Origin: Terriglobia bacterium
Lineage (GTDB): Bacteria; Acidobacteriota; Terriglobia; Terriglobales; Acidobacteriaceae
Assembly (NCBI GenBank): GCA_032252755.1
Contig: JAVUPY010000066.1
Span: 1 to 63,259, forward strand
Length of the DNA stretch: 63,259 bases
Direction of reading: 5' to 3'
Position 1 is the first letter of the stretch; each line of letters starts with the position of its first letter. Both the position numbers and the translations under genes were made by a program. Under the pieces are notes generated by a model that did no database searches, was not told the DNA's origin, and saw nothing but the letters and a program-made list of their open reading frames with translations. Positions 52,748-63,259 of the stretch are shown piece after piece.

Positions 52748-53647
52748 ATGAGCGCAAAGAACGAATCCAAAGAATCCAGGCCTGCTTCCAAAAGCGGGAC
52801 GTTTGCGATCGGTGGTGAACTTCCGGTGCACCGGTTGGGTTTCGGTACCATGCGACTCACTGGGCCCGGCATCTGGGGCGAACCGGCGGATTGCAAAGAG
52901 GCTATCGCTGTTTTGCGCCGAGCGCTCGACCTCGGAATCAATTTGCTCGATACCGCCGATTCCTACGGACCTTATGTCGCAGAGGAACTTATCCGTGAGG
53001 CTCTTCATCCTTATCCAGCCGGGTTGGTCATTGCGACCAAGGCAGGACTGCTTCGAACCGGGCCAAATTCCTGGACTCCGCTTGGCCGCCCCGAATACCT
53101 TCGGCAGGAATGCGAAATGAGCCTCCGTCGGTTGAAGCTCGACCGCATCGACTTGTTTCAACTTCATCGAATCGACCCTAACGTACCCGCGGACGATCAA
53201 TTCGGCCTCCTGCGCGATCTTCAGAAGGAGGGCAAGATACGTTTCGTCGGGCTTTCCGAGGCTAGTGTCGCTGAAATCCAGGCAGCGCGTCGCGTCGTCT
53301 CCATCGTAACCGTACAAAACCTCTACAACCTCACAGAACGGAAATACGAGGACGTGCTGCAGTACTGCACGCGTGAAAATCTCGGATTCATCCCTTGGTT
53401 CCCGCTCGCCACCGGCAACCTCGCTGCAACAGGCAGCCCGGTTCAACGCGCCGCCGAGCGCGCCGGAGCGCAACCCTCGCAGGTGGCACTGGCCTGGCTG
53501 CTCAGGAAATCCCCCGTTATGCTCCCGATCCCCGGGACATCGAAAGTGAAGCACCTCGAGGAGAACACCAAGGCGGCGCTTCTGCAGTTGGATGATGCGT
53601 TCATGGACGAGTTGGAAAACGTAAAGTCACCCGGCAAGGCCGCTTGA
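52748..53647 (+). CDS. Aldo/keto reductase
   Basis: 299 residues from ATG 52748, with GGAGG at 52737-52741. The (beta/alpha)8 fold and catalytic tetrad are present: Asp68 and Tyr73 ([10 protein letters not shown]), Lys98 (VIATKAGLL) and His140 (LFQLHRID). [15 protein letters not shown] and [13 protein letters not shown] place it in the AKR13/YeaE-type group. It reduces aldehydes or ketones with NADPH. An SDR gene follows 6 bases later, so they form an operon, but that SDR is frameshifted. Bases 52997-53035 recur inverted downstream at 54458-54496. Confidence 0.93.
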
Positions 53648-53677: not shown

Positions 53678-54389
53678 ATGAATGAGAAATCGGGACATAT
53701 CGCGCTAGTCACCGGCGCAAACCGAGGCATCGGATTCGAAGTCTGCCGTCAGCTCGCAACCCGTGGCTTCACCGTCCTGCTCACAGCGCGGGACGCCACG
53801 AAGGCTCAGGTTGCCGCGAGAAAGTTGTACGAACCAGGCACAATCGAACCGCTTGCTCTCAATGTCGCCGACCCAGGCAGCGTCGAGTGAAGCCGCTGCT
53901 GAGGTGAAGCGCCGATTCGGCCATCTCGATGTGCTGATCAATAACGCCGGCATTAATTACGACACATGGGAGAACGTTGAGAACGCTGACATTCATGGCA
54001 CGGTAATGGACACGATCATCACGAACTTGGTAGGCCCTTGGCGTGTCTGCCAAGCGTTCCTGCCGCTCCTGCGAAAAAGCCGTTCAGCACGCATCGTGAA
54101 TGTTTCATCGGAATCAGGATCGCTCGCGAGCATGGGCGCCGGACCACCTGCTTATCAGGTCACCAAGGCTGGCTTGAACGCAATGACGCGTACTCTCGCG
54201 GCCGAGCTTCGCAGTGCTCACATCCTTGTCAACGCAGTCTGCCCGGGATGGGTCGCAACGGAGATGGGCGGCCCTGGTGCTCCGCGCAACGTTGCCGAGG
54301 GTGCCGCCAGCATCATCTGGGCAGCGACGCTGCCCGACGACGGCCCGACAGGCGGTTTCTTCCGCGATGGCAAACCCCTGCCGTGGTAA
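53678..54389 (+). pseudogene. Short-chain dehydrogenase/reductase with one-base frameshift
   Basis: The first part from ATG 53678 (MNEKSGHIALVTGANRGIGFEV) has the TGxxxGIG cofactor motif and runs to TGA 53888-53890. Similarity resumes in another frame at AAAEVKRRFGHLDVLINNAG and continues through SSESGSLASMGAGPPAYQVTKAGLNAM (Tyr-x3-Lys catalytic pair) to the family's end, FFRDGKPLPW at TAA 54387-54389. Omitting the T at 53888 joins the two halves into a complete 236-residue SDR, with VEEAAAEVKRR at the seam. So it is either a recent pseudogene or a sequencing error. It sits directly behind the aldo/keto reductase. Confidence 0.85.
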
Positions 54390-54457: not shown

Positions 54458-54496
54458 CGCAATGACCAACCCGGCTGGATAAGGATGAAGAGCCTC
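54458..54496. repeat. 39-base inverted copy of an aldo/keto reductase segment
   Basis: By eye, these 39 bases are identical to the reverse complement of 52997-53035, which is inside the aldo/keto reductase CDS. The flanks do not match. It lies between the frameshifted SDR and tRNA-Met. Confidence 0.75.
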
Positions 54497-56393: not shown

Positions 56394-58637
56394 ATGAAGG
56401 TGTTGTACGAAGAGGTCCCGCCACCGCCGTTCGTTCCGGCGGACAAGCGCCACTTGGCGCGCCAGGTGATCTATGCGCTCATGCTGATCGCCGCCGCCGT
56501 GATCGGTTCCCTCGCCGGACTTCTCATCGTCTATTCCACCGATCTTCCCGAAGCCAACGAACTCGAACGCTATCAACCCAGCTCCATAACTGAACTCTAC
56601 GACGACAAGGGCCGCGTCATCGGCTCGTTCGCCTTGCAGCGCCGCGTCATCGCCAAGTACGACGACTATCCCAAGGTCCTCCGCGACGCCATCATCTCAA
56701 TCGAAGACAAGGATTTCGAGAAGCATCTCGGCGTCGACTGGTGGCGCGTCATCGGTGCCGCCTATCGCGACATAACTTCGGGCAGCAAGGCGCAGGGCGC
56801 CTCCACGCTTACCATGCAGCTCTCGCGCAACCTCTTCTTGAACGCCGACCGCAACTTCGGCCGCAAGCTCCAGGAGACGATGCTCGCGATGTCCATCGAG
56901 CGCCGCTTCACCAAGCAGCAGATCTTCACCATGTACGCCAACCAGATATTCCTCGGTCACGGCGTCTACGGCTTTGAAGCCGGCTCGGAATTCTATTTCA
57001 GCAAGAAGGCGAAAGACCTCACGCTCGAAGAAGCGGCACTGCTCGCCGGACTTCCCAAGGCTCCGAACTACTATTCGCCCATCCTCAATCCCGAACGCGC
57101 TCTTCGCCGGCGCAATCTCATCATTAACTCCATGCTTGAGGACGGCAAAATCACCAATGCCGAAGCCCAGCACGCCAAGTCGATGCCAATCCAGTTGAAG
57201 CTCCAGAATGATCCCAACTGGCTTGCACCTTATTTTGCGGAAGAAATTCGCCAATACCTTGAGAACAAATATGGCAGCGACGAAGTCCACCAGGGCGGTC
57301 TCAAGGTCTACACCTCGCTCGACACCGATCTTCAACGCGCCGCCAACCAGGCTGTCCTCGATGGTCTTGCCGCCTACGAGCGTCGTCACGGATGGAAGGG
57401 AAATCTGCTCAACGTGATCGCCGCCGGCTCCGATCTCGAAAAGTTCGACCATCCGGACTGGCGGCAACCGATCGAGCCCGGTTCCTACGTCCACGCTCTC
57501 GTCACCGATGTGACCAGGTCAAACGCAACCCTGCGCCTCGGCTCCTTCACCGCGCAACTCAGTCCCGCCGACATGGCCTGGACCCAGGCAAAATCCCCCG
57601 CCGACATCCTTAGCGTCGGCGACATCGTCTACGTCAAGGTTCTCGAGATAAACCATAATTCCGCGCGAGTCTCCCTCGAGCAGGATTCCGGCGCACAAGG
57701 CGCGCTGGTCGCCATCGACAACACCACCGGCGAAATCAAGGCCATGGTCGGCGGCCGCGACTTCGATCTCTCGAAATTCAATCGCGCCACGCAAGCTCTC
57801 CGCCAGACCGGATCGTCCTTCAAACCCTACGTCTACAGCGCCGCAGTTGAAGAAGGCGCGACGCCCGATGACGTCATCTACGACGGCCCGGTAACCTTCT
57901 CGACCGCTTCGGGTCCTTACACGCCACACAATTACGACGGTAAATTCGAAGGCAACATCACTCTCCGCCGCGCCTTCGCACAGTCTCGCAACATTCCGGC
58001 TCTCAAACTCATCCAGCGCGTGGGCGTGCAGAAGGTTATTGCGTACGCGCGCAAGTTCGGCGTTACATCGGAACTTCCACCAGTCCTCCCGCTCGCGCTC
58101 GGCGCCGCCGAAGTCACCTTGATGGAGCAGACCGCCGCCTTCTCCACTTTCCCGAACGATGGCGTGCGCGTCACGCCTCACTACATAACGCGCGTCGAAG
58201 ACTCCGAGGGCCACAACCTTGAGGAAGACTATCCCGAGGTCAAGGACGTCATCAGCCCGCACACCGCGCGCGTCATGACGCAGATGATGCAGCAGGTCGT
58301 TCTCCACGGAACCGCATACTCCGCGGCGAAGCTCAATCATCCTCTCGGTGGAAAGACCGGCACGACCAACGATTTCACCGACGCCTGGTTCATCGGTTTC
58401 TCGCCATCCATCACCTGCGGCGTCTGGGTCGGCTACGATGAAAAGAAAACGCTGGGCAAGAAAGAGACCGGTGCCATGGCGGCCCTGCCAATCTGGATCG
58501 ACTTCATGAAAGTCGCGATCGCCGGAAAGGATAAGGAGCAGTTCCCTGAACCCGCCCCGGAAGACACAAAGAAAGCCGTCGCGCAGCAGCACGTCGACAC
58601 ACCCGACTTCCGACCCGGCGATGGCGAGGCCCACTGA
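56394..58637 (+). CDS. Penicillin-binding protein 1A (bifunctional transglycosylase/transpeptidase)
   Basis: 747 residues from ATG 56394. N-terminal membrane helix ALMLIAAAVIGSLAGLLIVY. GT51 transglycosylase: ISIEDKDFEKHLGVD (catalytic Glu), QGASTLTMQLSRNLFL (a variant of STxTQQ), then ETMLAMSIERRFTKQQIFTMYANQIFLGHGVYGFEAGS. An OB-like insert is present (SYVHALVTDVTRSNATLRLG). Transpeptidase: TGSSFKPYVYSAA (active-site SSFK), SRN and GGKTGTTNDFTDAWFIGFS (KTG box). It polymerises and cross-links peptidoglycan on the outer face of the inner membrane. Its stop overlaps the PASTA gene start by one base. Confidence 0.96.
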   Translation: MKVLYEEVPPPPFVPADKRHLARQVIYALMLIAAAVIGSLAGLLIVYSTDLPEANELERYQPSSITELYDDKGRVIGSFALQRRVIAKYDDYPKVLRDAIISIEDKDFEKHLGVDWWRVIGAAYRDITSGSKAQGASTLTMQLSRNLFLNADRNFGRKLQETMLAMSIERRFTKQQIFTMYANQIFLGHGVYGFEAGSEFYFSKKAKDLTLEEAALLAGLPKAPNYYSPILNPERALRRRNLIINSMLEDGKITNAEAQHAKSMPIQLKLQNDPNWLAPYFAEEIRQYLENKYGSDEVHQGGLKVYTSLDTDLQRAANQAVLDGLAAYERRHGWKGNLLNVIAAGSDLEKFDHPDWRQPIEPGSYVHALVTDVTRSNATLRLGSFTAQLSPADMAWTQAKSPADILSVGDIVYVKVLEINHNSARVSLEQDSGAQGALVAIDNTTGEIKAMVGGRDFDLSKFNRATQALRQTGSSFKPYVYSAAVEEGATPDDVIYDGPVTFSTASGPYTPHNYDGKFEGNITLRRAFAQSRNIPALKLIQRVGVQKVIAYARKFGVTSELPPVLPLALGAAEVTLMEQTAAFSTFPNDGVRVTPHYITRVEDSEGHNLEEDYPEVKDVISPHTARVMTQMMQQVVLHGTAYSAAKLNHPLGGKTGTTNDFTDAWFIGFSPSITCGVWVGYDEKKTLGKKETGAMAALPIWIDFMKVAIAGKDKEQFPEPAPEDTKKAVAQQHVDTPDFRPGDGEAH

Positions 58638-59344
58638 TGCGCCGCTTCGTCAAATACACCGTCGCCGGCCTCGTCCTCATCATCGTTGCCATGGGATCCA
58701 TGCTGATCACCATGCGGCTGGCAATTCATCGCCGCGAAGTCATTGTCCCGAAATTCATTGGCCTGTTGCCGCAGCCGGCTTACGAACTCGCGCGGCAGAA
58801 CGGGCTCATCCTCGTTCGCGAAAGCCGTTTCTATAGCGACGATATTCCCGTCGGCCACATCGTCTCGCAGGAGCCCTCGCCCGGTCAAAAGGTGCGCAAA
58901 GGCTGGCGTGTCCGCATCGCCGAAAGCATGGGCCCGCAACGCAACGTCGTTCCCAGTGTCATCGGCGACAGCCCGCGCGCCGCCGAACTGAATATCTCGC
59001 AGCGCGGCCTCGAACTCGGAACCATCTCGACCATGGCCGTGCCCGATACTCCACCGAACCAGGTCATCGCCCAGAGCCCTCCACCTGATTCGCACGCCGC
59101 AAGCCCGAAGGTAAACATCCTTGTCTCCGCACCCGCCGACGATAAGGCCTACGTGATGCCCGACCTCACCGGCATGCGCCTCTCCGACGCCACCGCCGCA
59201 ATCACCAACGCCGGCCTCAAGCCGCAAGCGCCAAGCGCTGCGACGCCGGATGCAATCGTCGTAAAACAAACCCCAGCCGTGGGCCAGCGCGTCACCAGCG
59301 GCGCGACGGTGACCCTCGGCACCGGCACGCCGCCGCAAAGCTAA
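58637..59344 (+). CDS. Membrane-anchored free-standing PASTA-domain protein
   Basis: 235 residues starting at ATG 58637, whose A is the last base of the PBP1A stop. N-terminal helix (YTVAGLVLIIVAMGSMLITMRLA), then three PASTA units at about 35-98 (VPKFIGLLPQPAYELARQNGL), 104-170 (VPSVIGDSPRAAELNISQRGL) and 175-232 (MPDLTGMRLSDATAAITNAGL). There is no kinase or penicillin-binding domain. PASTA modules bind muropeptides, lipid II or PBP domains. Because it is translationally linked to PBP1A it probably works as a detached wall-sensing subunit of it. Confidence 0.9.
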   Translation: MRRFVKYTVAGLVLIIVAMGSMLITMRLAIHRREVIVPKFIGLLPQPAYELARQNGLILVRESRFYSDDIPVGHIVSQEPSPGQKVRKGWRVRIAESMGPQRNVVPSVIGDSPRAAELNISQRGLELGTISTMAVPDTPPNQVIAQSPPPDSHAASPKVNILVSAPADDKAYVMPDLTGMRLSDATAAITNAGLKPQAPSAATPDAIVVKQTPAVGQRVTSGATVTLGTGTPPQS

Positions 59345-59354
59345 ACTTAACCTG

Positions 59355-59405
59355 TGTCATCCTGAGCGGAGCCGCGCTGTTTTTGCGCGGCGGAGTCGAA
59401 GGACC
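59355..59405. repeat. TGTCATCCTGAGCG-type dispersed repeat with internal hairpin
   Basis: TGTCATCCTGAGCGGA, a GCCGCGC-TGTTTTT-GCGCGGC hairpin (59371-59391) and GGAGTCGAAGGACC form the classic layout of a small intergenic repeat seen in many bacteria. It sits at the end of the wall cluster, before convergent rsmB, and may act as a terminator. Confidence 0.6.
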
Positions 59406-59422
59406 TTTTGTTTCTCTCAGTG

Positions 59423-60754
59423 CTATTCGCCTCTTTGCAATATTGCCGCAAAGAACCCATCGCACGGATGCACCCCCGGCAATGTCCGCAGGAAAGCCCC
59501 CCGCACCATTGACTCGATATCATCCCAAACCAAGTCGCCCGCATCGCGAAGTCGCATTAGTTCTTCGCGACACGGCACCAACCGAAACTCCGGATGCGAA
59601 CTCAGAACCTTCTCGACCACCGCCGAATTCTCTTCCGTCTCCAGCGAACAGGTCGAGTAAACCGCTCGTCCTCCCGGCGAAACGTGCCGCAGAGCCGCCG
59701 TGATAATCGCAACCTGCCGCTGCTGCAAATCCTCGAGATCCCTCTTTTGCAGCTTCCATTTGATCTCCGGATTCCGCGCCAGCGTCCCGGTCCCGGAGCA
59801 GGGAACATCGGCAAGCACGCGATCGAACCTGTCTCCAAGCTGCAACGCCGTGATGTCCGCCGTCAGCACTTCGACATTCGCACACGCAGCCACCCGCTCC
59901 TGCAGCAAACGCGCCCGGTGCGGATGCAATTCCGCCGCCACAATGTGAGCCTCGGGATTCCGAAATGCCAGCGCCGCCGTCTTGCTCCCCGGCGCAGCGC
60001 ACGCATCCAGAACCCGCGTCCCTCGTCCGACCAGCATCGCAACGAGTTGCGACGCTTCATCCTGGATGAATACACGGCGTTCGCGATACGCTTTCGTATT
60101 CGTCACATCGCCAGAAACAACCCCCAAGGCTCCGTTCACTAGCACTCCAAGCCTGGTCTCAACTCCTTCTTTTTGGAGTTCCTCTGCGATCTCGGTGCCC
60201 GACTCGTGAATCCTCAGCACCGTCTCCGGCACCTTCTGATCGTATTCGCATATTTTCTGCGTCGCTGCCAGCCCGAAAATATCCATCCACCGCGAGACTA
60301 ACCATTGCGGATGCGCCAGTCGCTGCGCCAACTCTTCAACAGGTGTCCTTGCCGTGATCTTCGGCGGAGAGGACACTATTTTCCGCAGCACGGCGTTGGC
60401 GAATCCGACCGCCGATCGCTTCCGCGCCGCCTTCACCAACTCCACGCTCTCGTTGACCGCTGCACGCGCCGGAACCCGGTCGAGAAACCGAATCTGGTAC
60501 GCCGCCATGCGCAGCGCAATCAGCACCTCGGGATCGAGACTTCGTGGCTGCTTGTCAGAGACCGCTGCAATCGCGAGGTCGAGTGCCGACTGCCACCGCA
60601 GCACGCCCATCACGATCTCCGTACAAAGCCCGCGATCGGCAGCGCTCAAATTGCGCAGCAGGTCGGAATGCAGTAACTCCGACGCATAGGCATCTTCCTT
60701 CTGTACGCGAAGAAGAATTTGGAATGCAGCGGTTCGTGCAGGCGACGCGGGCAT
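59423..60754 (-). CDS. rsmB: 16S rRNA (cytosine967-C5)-methyltransferase
   Basis: 443 residues from ATG 60754 (MPASPARTAAFQIL). The NusB-like N-terminal domain (SELLHSDLLRNLSAADRGLCTEIVMGVLRW) is followed by the SAM-dependent m5C fold: DACAAPGSKTAAL, LADVPCSGTGTLARNPEIKW (catalytic Cys region) and AVYSTCSLETEENSAVV (nucleophile Cys). It methylates C967 of 16S rRNA in the assembled or precursor 30S. In many genomes it follows def and fmt; here the order fmt-rsmB has 87 bases between, including a dispersed hairpin. Confidence 0.95.
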   Translation of the reverse strand: MPASPARTAAFQILLRVQKEDAYASELLHSDLLRNLSAADRGLCTEIVMGVLRWQSALDLAIAAVSDKQPRSLDPEVLIALRMAAYQIRFLDRVPARAAVNESVELVKAARKRSAVGFANAVLRKIVSSPPKITARTPVEELAQRLAHPQWLVSRWMDIFGLAATQKICEYDQKVPETVLRIHESGTEIAEELQKEGVETRLGVLVNGALGVVSGDVTNTKAYRERRVFIQDEASQLVAMLVGRGTRVLDACAAPGSKTAALAFRNPEAHIVAAELHPHRARLLQERVAACANVEVLTADITALQLGDRFDRVLADVPCSGTGTLARNPEIKWKLQKRDLEDLQQRQVAIITAALRHVSPGGRAVYSTCSLETEENSAVVEKVLSSHPEFRLVPCREELMRLRDAGDLVWDDIESMVRGAFLRTLPGVHPCDGFFAAILQRGE

Positions 60755-60786
60755 AAACTTTCCGTCGGGCCCCCTTACGCATGCGC

Positions 60787-60825
60787 GGTGCCCCACATCT
60801 GCCGCAGTTGGCAAGGTGCGGGTTC
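60787..60825. repeat. Dispersed hairpin repeat, GGTGCCCCAC family, copy 4
   Basis: GGTGCCCCACATCTGCC and GGCAAGGTGCGGGTTC pair imperfectly around GCAGTT. It lies in the gap between fmt and rsmB, on the minus strand's path of transcription. Confidence 0.6.
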
Positions 60826-60841: not shown

Positions 60842-61774
60842 TTACCTTCCTAACATCTCTCCAGGCTGCGGTCGATAACCGTTGGCGAAATCTCTTGCAC
60901 TCATGCGTTTCTTCCCTTCAGGCTGCACTTCCATCAAATCCAGCACGCTGCGTTGGCCGCATCCGACGAGCAGGCGGTCCCCGGAAACCGTTACTTCGGC
61001 CTGCTCAAGCTGTAGCCCCACGCCTGGCCGGGCCGCATGAACCGTCAACTGCTTTCCACGAAACGTGGTGAACGCGCCCGGCCACGGCTGAAACCCGCGC
61101 AGCCGATTGAAAATTTCCGTCGCGCTGAGCGAAAAATCGATCCGCCCATCTTCTTTCTTCAATATCGGCGCCAGCGTCGCCTGCGAATCATCCTGTTTCG
61201 TGGGCTGCATCTCGCCGGCTTCAAATCCGCGCAGCGTCTCGATCAGCAGCGACGCTCCAAGCTGCGAAAGCCTCGGCGCAAGTGTGACCGCTGTATCATC
61301 CGCTGCAATTGGCATCTCCGCTTTCAGCAGCATGTCGCCTGTGTCGAGTCCGGCATCGATGCGCATCGTGGTCACACCGGTCACGGTTTCGCCGCAAGCA
61401 ATCGCCCACTGAATCGGCGCCGCCCCGCGATACTTCGGCAGCAACGAGGCGTGCAGATTGAGATTGCCCAGCCGCGGCAGCTCCAGCATCCATTTCGGAA
61501 TGATGCGCCCGTAGGCGACCACCAGGATCGCATCCGGCCGCAGAGCCTCCATCTGCGCTCGAAACTCAGCATTGTTCCTGATCTTCTCCGGCTGCACCAC
61601 CGGAATCCCCTCTTCCATCGCCGTCGTTTTGACGGGAGGCGCGGTCAGCGTCTGCTCGCGGCCCACCGGCCGATCCGGCTGCGTCACCACCAGCGGCACA
61701 TCGTAGCCGGCTCGCAGCGCCAGCTTCAGCGTGGGCACAGCGAACGCGGGCGTCCCGCAGAAGACCAGCTTCAT
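60842..61774 (-). CDS. fmt: Methionyl-tRNA formyltransferase
   Basis: 310 residues from ATG 61774, overlapping the def stop by 4 bases (ATGA); a GTG at 61780 is an alternative. KLVFCGTPAFAVPTL is the N-terminus and NLHASLLPKYRGAAPIQWA the formyl-folate binding and catalytic motif. The C-terminal OB domain (KQLTVHAARPGVGL) binds tRNA. It formylates Met-tRNAfMet using 10-formyl-THF. Forms the def-fmt unit with the deformylase that reverses its mark on the protein. Confidence 0.96.
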   Translation of the reverse strand: MKLVFCGTPAFAVPTLKLALRAGYDVPLVVTQPDRPVGREQTLTAPPVKTTAMEEGIPVVQPEKIRNNAEFRAQMEALRPDAILVVAYGRIIPKWMLELPRLGNLNLHASLLPKYRGAAPIQWAIACGETVTGVTTMRIDAGLDTGDMLLKAEMPIAADDTAVTLAPRLSQLGASLLIETLRGFEAGEMQPTKQDDSQATLAPILKKEDGRIDFSLSATEIFNRLRGFQPWPGAFTTFRGKQLTVHAARPGVGLQLEQAEVTVSGDRLLVGCGQRSVLDLMEVQPEGKKRMSARDFANGYRPQPGEMLGR

Positions 61775-62283
61775 TTCCACTCGCCGGTTCTCTGCAGCTT
61801 GCGAATCTTCCGCAAAATCAGGTCCCGCTTCAGCCCGCTCAGCCGCCAGGGGAACAGAATCCCGTCCAGATGATCGATCTCATGCTGGAAGGCGCGCGCC
61901 AGCAGCTCGCTCCCCTCCAGTTCAATCCAGTTCCCGTCCAGATCCTGGGCCTTCACCTTCACCTTCGACGCGCGCGTCACCTTGTCGCGAATGTCGGGCA
62001 GGCTCAGGCAGCCCTCCTCCTCCACCTGCCTGCCTTCCTTGTGCACGATCTCCGGATTCACCAGCACGATCTTGTCTTTCGGGTTCTGTTTGTTGCTGAG
62101 GTCGATGACCGTGATGCGCCTGCCCACCCCGATCTGCGGCGCCGCCAGGCCAATGCCCTGCGCCTTATACATCGACTCAAACATATCGGCCGCCAGCGTG
62201 CGCAACTCTTCGTTGAACTCCGCAATCTTCTCGGTCGGCCGCTGCAAAATTGGGTCCGGATATTTAACAATTTCCCTGATCAT
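61771..62283 (-). CDS. def: Peptide deformylase
   Basis: 170 residues, standard size. Motifs: GIGLAAPQIG (about 43-52), EEGCLSLP (89-96) with the metal-binding Cys, and QHEIDHLDG (133-141) with the two His and the catalytic Glu. It removes the N-formyl group from nascent proteins, using Fe2+ or a similar metal. Coupled to fmt downstream; aroC lies 50 bases upstream on the same strand and could share a transcript. Confidence 0.97.
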   Translation of the reverse strand: MIREIVKYPDPILQRPTEKIAEFNEELRTLAADMFESMYKAQGIGLAAPQIGVGRRITVIDLSNKQNPKDKIVLVNPEIVHKEGRQVEEEGCLSLPDIRDKVTRASKVKVKAQDLDGNWIELEGSELLARAFQHEIDHLDGILFPWRLSGLKRDLILRKIRKLQRTGEWK

Positions 62284-62333
62284 CTGCGTTTCTGCTTGTG
62301 TGTCCCTTTACCGTAAACGGTATCCCGTAATCC

Positions 62334-63131
62334 CTAGTACTTCCCCACCTGCTCCACATACCCCTCGTAATTCCTCTTCAACTCGCGCAGCGAATCCCCG
62401 CCGAACTTCTCCAGCGCCACTCGGGCCACGGTCAGCGCCACCATCGCCTCCGCCGCCACACCCGCCGCCGGCACCACGCACACGTCGCTGCGCTCATACG
62501 CCGCCTTCGTCTCCTCGCGCGTATCGAAGCGTACCGACTGCAGCGGACGCCGCAGCGTCGAAATCGGCTTCAGATACCCGCGCACCACAATGTCTTCTCC
62601 ATTAGAGATGCCGCCTTCGAGCCCGCCGGCGTTGTTTTGCTCCCGCGTAAAGCGCGTGTGCTGGCCGTCTTTCGCCTCCTGCGCATAGCCAATGGCATCG
62701 TGGACCTCCGACCCCAGCGACTCTGCCGCCGTCACCCCGCGCCCGATCTCCACCGCCTTCACCGCCTGCAGAGACATCACCGTCTGCGCCAGCAGGCCAT
62801 CCAGCCGCTCGTCCCAGTTGGCGCAGGTGCCCAGCCCCGGAGGCGCGCCGTGCACCACCACCTCAAAAACGCCGCCCACCGTGTCGCCGGTCCGCAGCAC
62901 CGCGTCCACTTCGGCTTTCATGCGCGCTTCGGTTTCCGCATCGACACAGTTCAGCAGCACTTCATCCTTCTCCCGCAGCGCCGCAATCTCTTCCCAGCGT
63001 GCCGTCCGCCCCAACTCGGCGCGGCCTACGCGAATCACGTGGCTCGCCACGTCGATCCCCAGTTCCAGCAGCAGCAGCTTCGCCACGGCGCCGCCGGCAA
63101 CCCGTGCCGTCGATTCCCGCGCCGACGCCCG
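62334..63131 (-). CDS. aroC: Chorismate synthase, N-terminus missing at a rearranged junction
   Basis: The C-terminal 260 or so residues are intact: AVAKLLLLELGIDVASHVIRVG, VEVVVHGAPPGLGTCANWDERLDGLLAQTVMSLQAVKAVEIGRG-type core with GSEVHDAIGYA, then NNAGGLEGGISNGEDIVVRGYLKPISTL, SDVCVVPAAGVAAEAMVALTVARVALEKFGGDS and the end. The enzyme converts EPSP to chorismate using reduced FMN. Upstream, similarity stops at the RASARES region (about 63115-63131). There the opposite strand starts a second aroC fragment, so the N-terminal third is not on this stretch. Either a chimeric join or a real rearrangement has cut it. Confidence 0.9.
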   Translation of the reverse strand, partial: RASARESTARVAGGAVAKLLLLELGIDVASHVIRVGRAELGRTARWEEIAALREKDEVLLNCVDAETEARMKAEVDAVLRTGDTVGGVFEVVVHGAPPGLGTCANWDERLDGLLAQTVMSLQAVKAVEIGRGVTAAESLGSEVHDAIGYAQEAKDGQHTRFTREQNNAGGLEGGISNGEDIVVRGYLKPISTLRRPLQSVRFDTREETKAAYERSDVCVVPAAGVAAEAMVALTVARVALEKFGGDSLRELKRNYEGYVEQVGKY

Positions 63132-63259
63132 CTGCAGTCTGTGCGTTTCGACACGCGCGAAGAGACGAAGGCTGCGTACGAGCGGAGTGACGTTTGCGTC
63201 GTTCCGGCGGCGGGCGTGGCAGCCGAGGCGATGGTGGCGCTGACGATGGCGGCGGTGGC
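63123..63259 (+). pseudogene. Inverted second fragment of chorismate synthase at the window edge
   Basis: Read on the plus strand from 63123 this gives RRPLQSVRFDTREETKAAYE, then RSDVCVVPAAGVAAEAMVALT, then MAAV to the edge. That is the same stretch as in the minus-strand aroC at about 62420-62560, with only a few residues different. The DNA differs at roughly 20 of 134 positions, nearly all third bases. So it is a diverged homologue (another strain or a paralogue), not a mirror artefact of the same molecule. Its own N-terminus is missing at the junction. A C-terminus would lie beyond the window. Confidence 0.8.

Follow-up and report, generated by a model that had tools for sequence, protein, structure and literature searches.

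Genes at the right end of the contig

The stretch of DNA analysed here (the window) makes up all of contig C66 (63,259 bp) of the draft genome G000. This draft consists of 5,387,153 bases in 96 contigs, with a listed completeness of 99.98 and a listed contamination of 3.03%. Relatives are referred to by genus codes (g34, g36, g47, g63, g29, g56 and g9) and individual genomes by numbers of the form G0xx or G1xx; the genus of G000 has no further genome in the comparison set. The main protein comparison was made between nine relatives from g34, g36 and g47 and eleven from other genera, which are referred to as non-g34.

The body of the contig ends with genes for a penicillin-binding protein (PBP) and a PASTA protein on the plus strand and rsmB on the minus strand (56394-60814), as assigned with Pfam. 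These are followed on the minus strand by the C-terminal part of fmt (60842-61417), which has a Formyl_trans_C match and an affinity like that of rsmB, and then by a conserved block in the same gene (61415-61443). A foreign-looking stretch, recognised from its protein identities and third-position GC, occupies positions 61444-63133 of the minus strand and is composed of the N-terminal part of fmt, def and an aroC (chorismate synthase, 62334-63133) that lacks its N-terminus. A C-terminal fragment of another aroC lies on the plus strand (63129-63259) and reaches the contig end. We infer a first misjoin at the conserved fmt block, at which the affinity switches, and a second one at a short shared sequence (63119-63133) where the two aroC pieces meet head-on.

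The head-on aroC junction

The minus-strand aroC loses its N-terminus at 63119-63133, where the plus-strand piece starts, and 126-141 nt separate the junction from the end of the contig. When relatives were aligned on both sides, C66 was observed to agree with the minus-strand copy as far as 63133 and with the plus-strand copy from 63129 onwards. The common stretch at the junction is at least CCGCT (5 nt, 63129-63133) and may extend up to 15 nt, depending on the codons of the donor. A preliminary description of this DNA had placed the junction at 63120-63131 and remarked on a short shared sequence there, and the alignment of relatives is in agreement with both statements. Neither copy gives a full-length match to PF01264 (Chorismate_synt), where the minus-strand gene covers profile positions 110-327 and the plus-strand piece positions 281-323 of 327; the absence of the N-terminal part from both had also been recognised. 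A second Pfam comparison placed the start of the minus-strand match at profile position 115 (115-327).

The two pieces form an inverted repeat (62416-62557 and 63118-63259) of 142 nt with 82% complementarity and arms 560 nt apart, which was recovered by BLAST at 85% over 128 nt. Over positions 63129-63259 the arms are identical at 110 of 131 nucleotides, and 18 of the 21 differences fall at third codon positions. Among the 43 codons compared, 17 silent changes and 2 amino-acid-changing ones were found. The earlier estimate of about 84% identity in DNA is accurate. Because the 21 differences are mostly silent and concentrated at third codon positions, the arms look like orthologues of two species and not like copies of one molecule.

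A change of affinity inside fmt

The genes near the contig end were observed to differ in their closest relatives. The mean amino-acid identity of rsmB is 58.6% to the non-g34 relatives (9 of 11 with a match, that of G030 over 81 residues only) and 43.8% to the g34/g36/g47 group (9 of 9), and the C-terminal part of fmt gives 62.1% (11 of 11) and 51.5% (9 of 9) respectively. This relation is reversed in the genes that follow, where the g34/g36/g47 group is the closer one for the N-terminal part of fmt (83.5% versus 63.9%), def (83.5% versus 56.8%) and aroC (88.3% versus 69.5%). The third-position GC also differs, with values of 0.56-0.72 for the C-terminal part of fmt and 0.75-0.89 for the remaining part of this gene and for def and aroC.

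When DNA identity is followed in windows along the gene, the switch falls at about 61370-61460. The contrast to its left is not clean, since g34 genomes equal or exceed most others in the windows at 61145-61279. We also compared the 95 sites of fmt at which the consensus base of seven g34 genomes differs from that of eleven others (each consensus at least 70%). C66 was found to be g34-like at 22 and other-like at 6 of the sites to the right of 61443, with corresponding counts of 9 and 48 to the left, and it has neither base at 10 sites (Fisher p=2.4e-8, a descriptive and not a blind value, since the groups were picked after the affinities had been seen). The best single breakpoint, at 61417-61464, accounts for 70 of the 85 informative sites.

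The conserved block at 61415-61443 contains the longest exact match of C66 for 9 of the 21 loci compared. Two g34 genomes share 29 nt with C66, contig C11 of the draft itself shares 25 nt, and 19-22 nt are shared by one more g34, one g36, one g47 and three genomes from other genera. For the other 12 loci the longest match in the scanned stretch lies outside the block; in three cases (20-23 nt) its end falls just within the left edge of the block.

A different affinity on the two sides of the putative first join is what is expected of an assembly chimera. The minus-strand aroC itself belongs to a longer foreign-looking stretch starting inside fmt at about 61417-61464, which was missed in the preliminary description. 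An affinity to g34 alone is no proof of foreign origin because the best matches of another large contig of the genome (C52:1-8000) are mixed and come from g34 and g9 genomes.

The reading frame of the predicted Fmt (60842-61780) continues without a stop through the join, and the protein matches both Pfam domains. This protein is probably a hybrid of the proteins of two organisms and not a natural one, and such hybrids can go unnoticed in databases.

Copies of aroC and def in the genome

A search of G000 revealed one further aroC, which is intact, at C11:64529-65632; the preliminary description had proposed looking for such a third copy. Thus aroC occurs in three places in this genome, whereas a search with an aroC model found exactly one in each of 17 relatives. 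The missing N-terminal part of the C66 gene was not found elsewhere in G000 when the region upstream of a g34 aroC was used as query: this query matched only the C11 aroC, a region on C6 (66% over 425 nt) and 41 nt on C54. Among 200 genomes, the best-scoring ones for aroC-def of C11 belong to g63, g29 and g56 (72-73%) and not to g34. In a literature search, we found no paper on two copies of chorismate synthase in Acidobacteria.

Three peptide deformylase genes were observed in G000, at C66:61825-62280, C11:65716-66168 and C25:27142-27636. The def of C66 is probably foreign, and that of C25 may be a genuine second def.

Gene order in relatives and the relation to contig C11

The genes fmt, def and aroC are adjacent in the relatives compared, and rsmB lies beside them in most. 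C66 shares the fmt-def-aroC order of this family neighbourhood but differs from it in having an aroC that is truncated by the join and has no upstream neighbourhood. The complete row PBP-PASTA-rsmB-fmt-def-aroC was observed in G055, G049, G044 and G117, that is, in 4 of the 11 non-g34 relatives. In the other seven the PBP match lies on a separate contig, and two of the eleven (G114 and G138) have no rsmB match in the stretch compared.

On C11, aroC and def are present together with codons 1-180 of fmt, where the contig stops. The end of C11 lies shortly past the same conserved block of fmt at which C66 switches. A native row of genes that was split into C66 and C11 would fit and is attractive because four relatives have the full row and the only Formyl_trans_C match in G000 is on C66. 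However, the last 183 nt of C11 (locus L031 14718-14900) are only 56% identical in protein to the corresponding segment of C66, and no relative is clearly close to them. The two contigs therefore do not simply fit together, and the separate PBP of seven relatives and the unmatched rsmB of two also speak against C11 as a simple continuation.

Search for the junction and its donors in other genomes

The aroC region was searched against 150 genomes drawn from a larger group, one of which is G000 itself. A match was found in 144 of the 149 other family genomes, and among the matches listed none is collinear with C66 past 63138 except G000 itself. The best match to positions 62334-63137 in these 149 genomes is 86%. 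The tail (63129-63259) is matched by 244 of 397 other genomes sampled from the larger family, where a g34 genome gives the best full-length value (87%) and another genome reaches 88% over 105 nt. For the stretch 61444-63133 the best match over the whole length is 83% among those listed for 35 loci. A near-identical donor (about 100%) was thus found neither for the tail in the 397 genomes nor for this stretch among the matches listed for the 35 loci.

A probable chimeric contig end

The sequence comparisons suggest that the right end of C66 is a chimera with at least two joins between related bacteria that was made in sequencing or assembly, and we give this a probability of about 0.87. The head-on arrangement of aroC is then most likely an ordinary artefact which is not to be read as biology. 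A chimeric contig end had been among the first choices of the preliminary description, and it is now favoured by the short distance between junction and contig end, the intact aroC of C11, the single copy in all 17 relatives and the lack of collinearity past 63138 in any relative listed. The affinity switch, the shared block and the inverted join are observed, as are the nearness to the contig end and the intact gene on another contig; both joins would have arisen outside the cell.

The chimera would have formed from the DNA of related bacteria that were sequenced together. At the conserved fmt block (61415-61443) the contig would leave its own organism and continue in the DNA of a g34-like one, and at 63119-63133 the g34-like minus-strand aroC would be fused head-on, over 5-15 shared nucleotides, to the C-terminal region of the aroC of another relative. 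Assemblers usually need overlaps of 21 or more. The exact sequence shared at the first join (19-29 nt) could mislead an assembler; only 5-15 nt are shared at the second. Because this second stretch is so short, a chimeric read or a template switch, possibly between molecules of two species, would be its more likely source than a wrong assembler overlap. The tail of 126-141 nt would correspond to about one short read.

No terminal inverted repeat was found at 40 other contig starts of G000, in a scan of starts only that took in up to 20 kb per contig. Within 250 nt of these starts, the sole inverted self-match is an 18-nt palindrome on C7, and direct matches of 54 nt (C50) and 34 nt (C76) were also observed. 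As none of the 40 starts has such a repeat, tails of this kind are not a general fault of the assembly as far as tested. This counts against the chimeric reading, as do the lack of a near-identical donor among the genomes searched, the imperfect contrast in the left part of fmt, the g34 matches of C52:1-8000 and the poor fit between C66 and C11.

Comparison with known chimeras

According to PMC7111523, a change of phylogenetic profile from one side of a join to the other can reveal a chimeric scaffold in a metagenome assembly; in the experience of its authors such scaffolds are rare. Compared with what is described there, C66 is alike in its differing profiles, in the conserved sequence shared at the first join and in the position near a contig end; it differs in having two joins within 2 kb, the second of them inverted.

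Inverted chimeras are known from multiple displacement amplification. For one amplification method, the part of PMC1855051 that deals with rearrangements gives over 85% of them as inverted and over 70% of the junctions as having 2-21 complementary nucleotides. The aroC junction of C66 resembles these chimeras in its inverted orientation and in a number of shared bases that lies within this range. It differs from them, as they appear in that source, in its arms, which at 84% identity do not come from one molecule.

Alternative explanations

A real hybrid locus would require that recombination at the conserved block of fmt brought in fmt-def-aroC across genera from a g34-like relative, that a later head-on inversion involving a second foreign aroC disrupted both genes, and that the C11 aroC serves the cell. 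The block that holds the switch is indeed highly conserved and might equally be a site of homologous recombination, and an intact aroC is present elsewhere. The upstream neighbourhood of a g34 aroC was found on no other contig of G000, which speaks for such a locus but is also expected if the contigs of the other organism were binned elsewhere; the g34 genomes among the best matches of C52:1-8000 also count in its favour. Two events and two donors would however be needed, both less than 2 kb from the contig end and the second no more than 141 nt from it, in a group where all 17 relatives have one aroC and none of those among the matches listed has the junction. We consider this highly unlikely, and the real inversion between paralogues that had been held possible in the preliminary description, although still conceivable, is unlikely.

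It is very improbable, too, that all of C66 comes from a contaminating organism and only the terminal 126-141 nt are chimeric. The listed contamination of 3.03%, the presence of aroC and def on both C66 and C11 and the disagreement of the two contigs in their common fmt stretch are consistent with it, but the affinity switches within fmt and not at a contig border. The tetranucleotide pattern and GC of positions 1-60000 are also similar to those of the other sampled contigs of G000 (r 0.77-0.82 to their mean), although this test is poor at separating close relatives. It covered C66 1-60000 only, with chunks of G000 under 14,000 bases dropped, and composition is not decisive on whether C66 belongs to G000.

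A fold-back in amplification or library preparation, in which one aroC molecule is copied back on itself, has the inverted orientation, the few shared junction bases and the arms 560 nt apart that are typical of amplification chimeras as described in PMC1855051. Such a copy would however be identical, and this proposal of the preliminary description is barely conceivable for arms with 21 mismatches over 131 nt, of which 18 fall on third codon positions. An identity of no more than 84% between the arms contradicts a fold-back of one aroC molecule.

If the chimeric contig end is accepted, the last 1.8 kb of C66 (the N-terminus of fmt, def and aroC) are unfit for phylogeny, for gene counts and for claims of duplicated essential genes.

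Other features of the window

A search of a plasmid collection with the window returned weak actinobacterial matches only. A perfect inverted repeat of 39 nt was also observed in the window, with arms at 52997-53035 and 54458-54496. One arm lies within an aldo/keto reductase gene (52748-53647) and the other lies downstream of an open reading frame (53763-54389) which presumably encodes a short-chain dehydrogenase. This repeat could be another small scar of assembly or copying, or a natural remnant.
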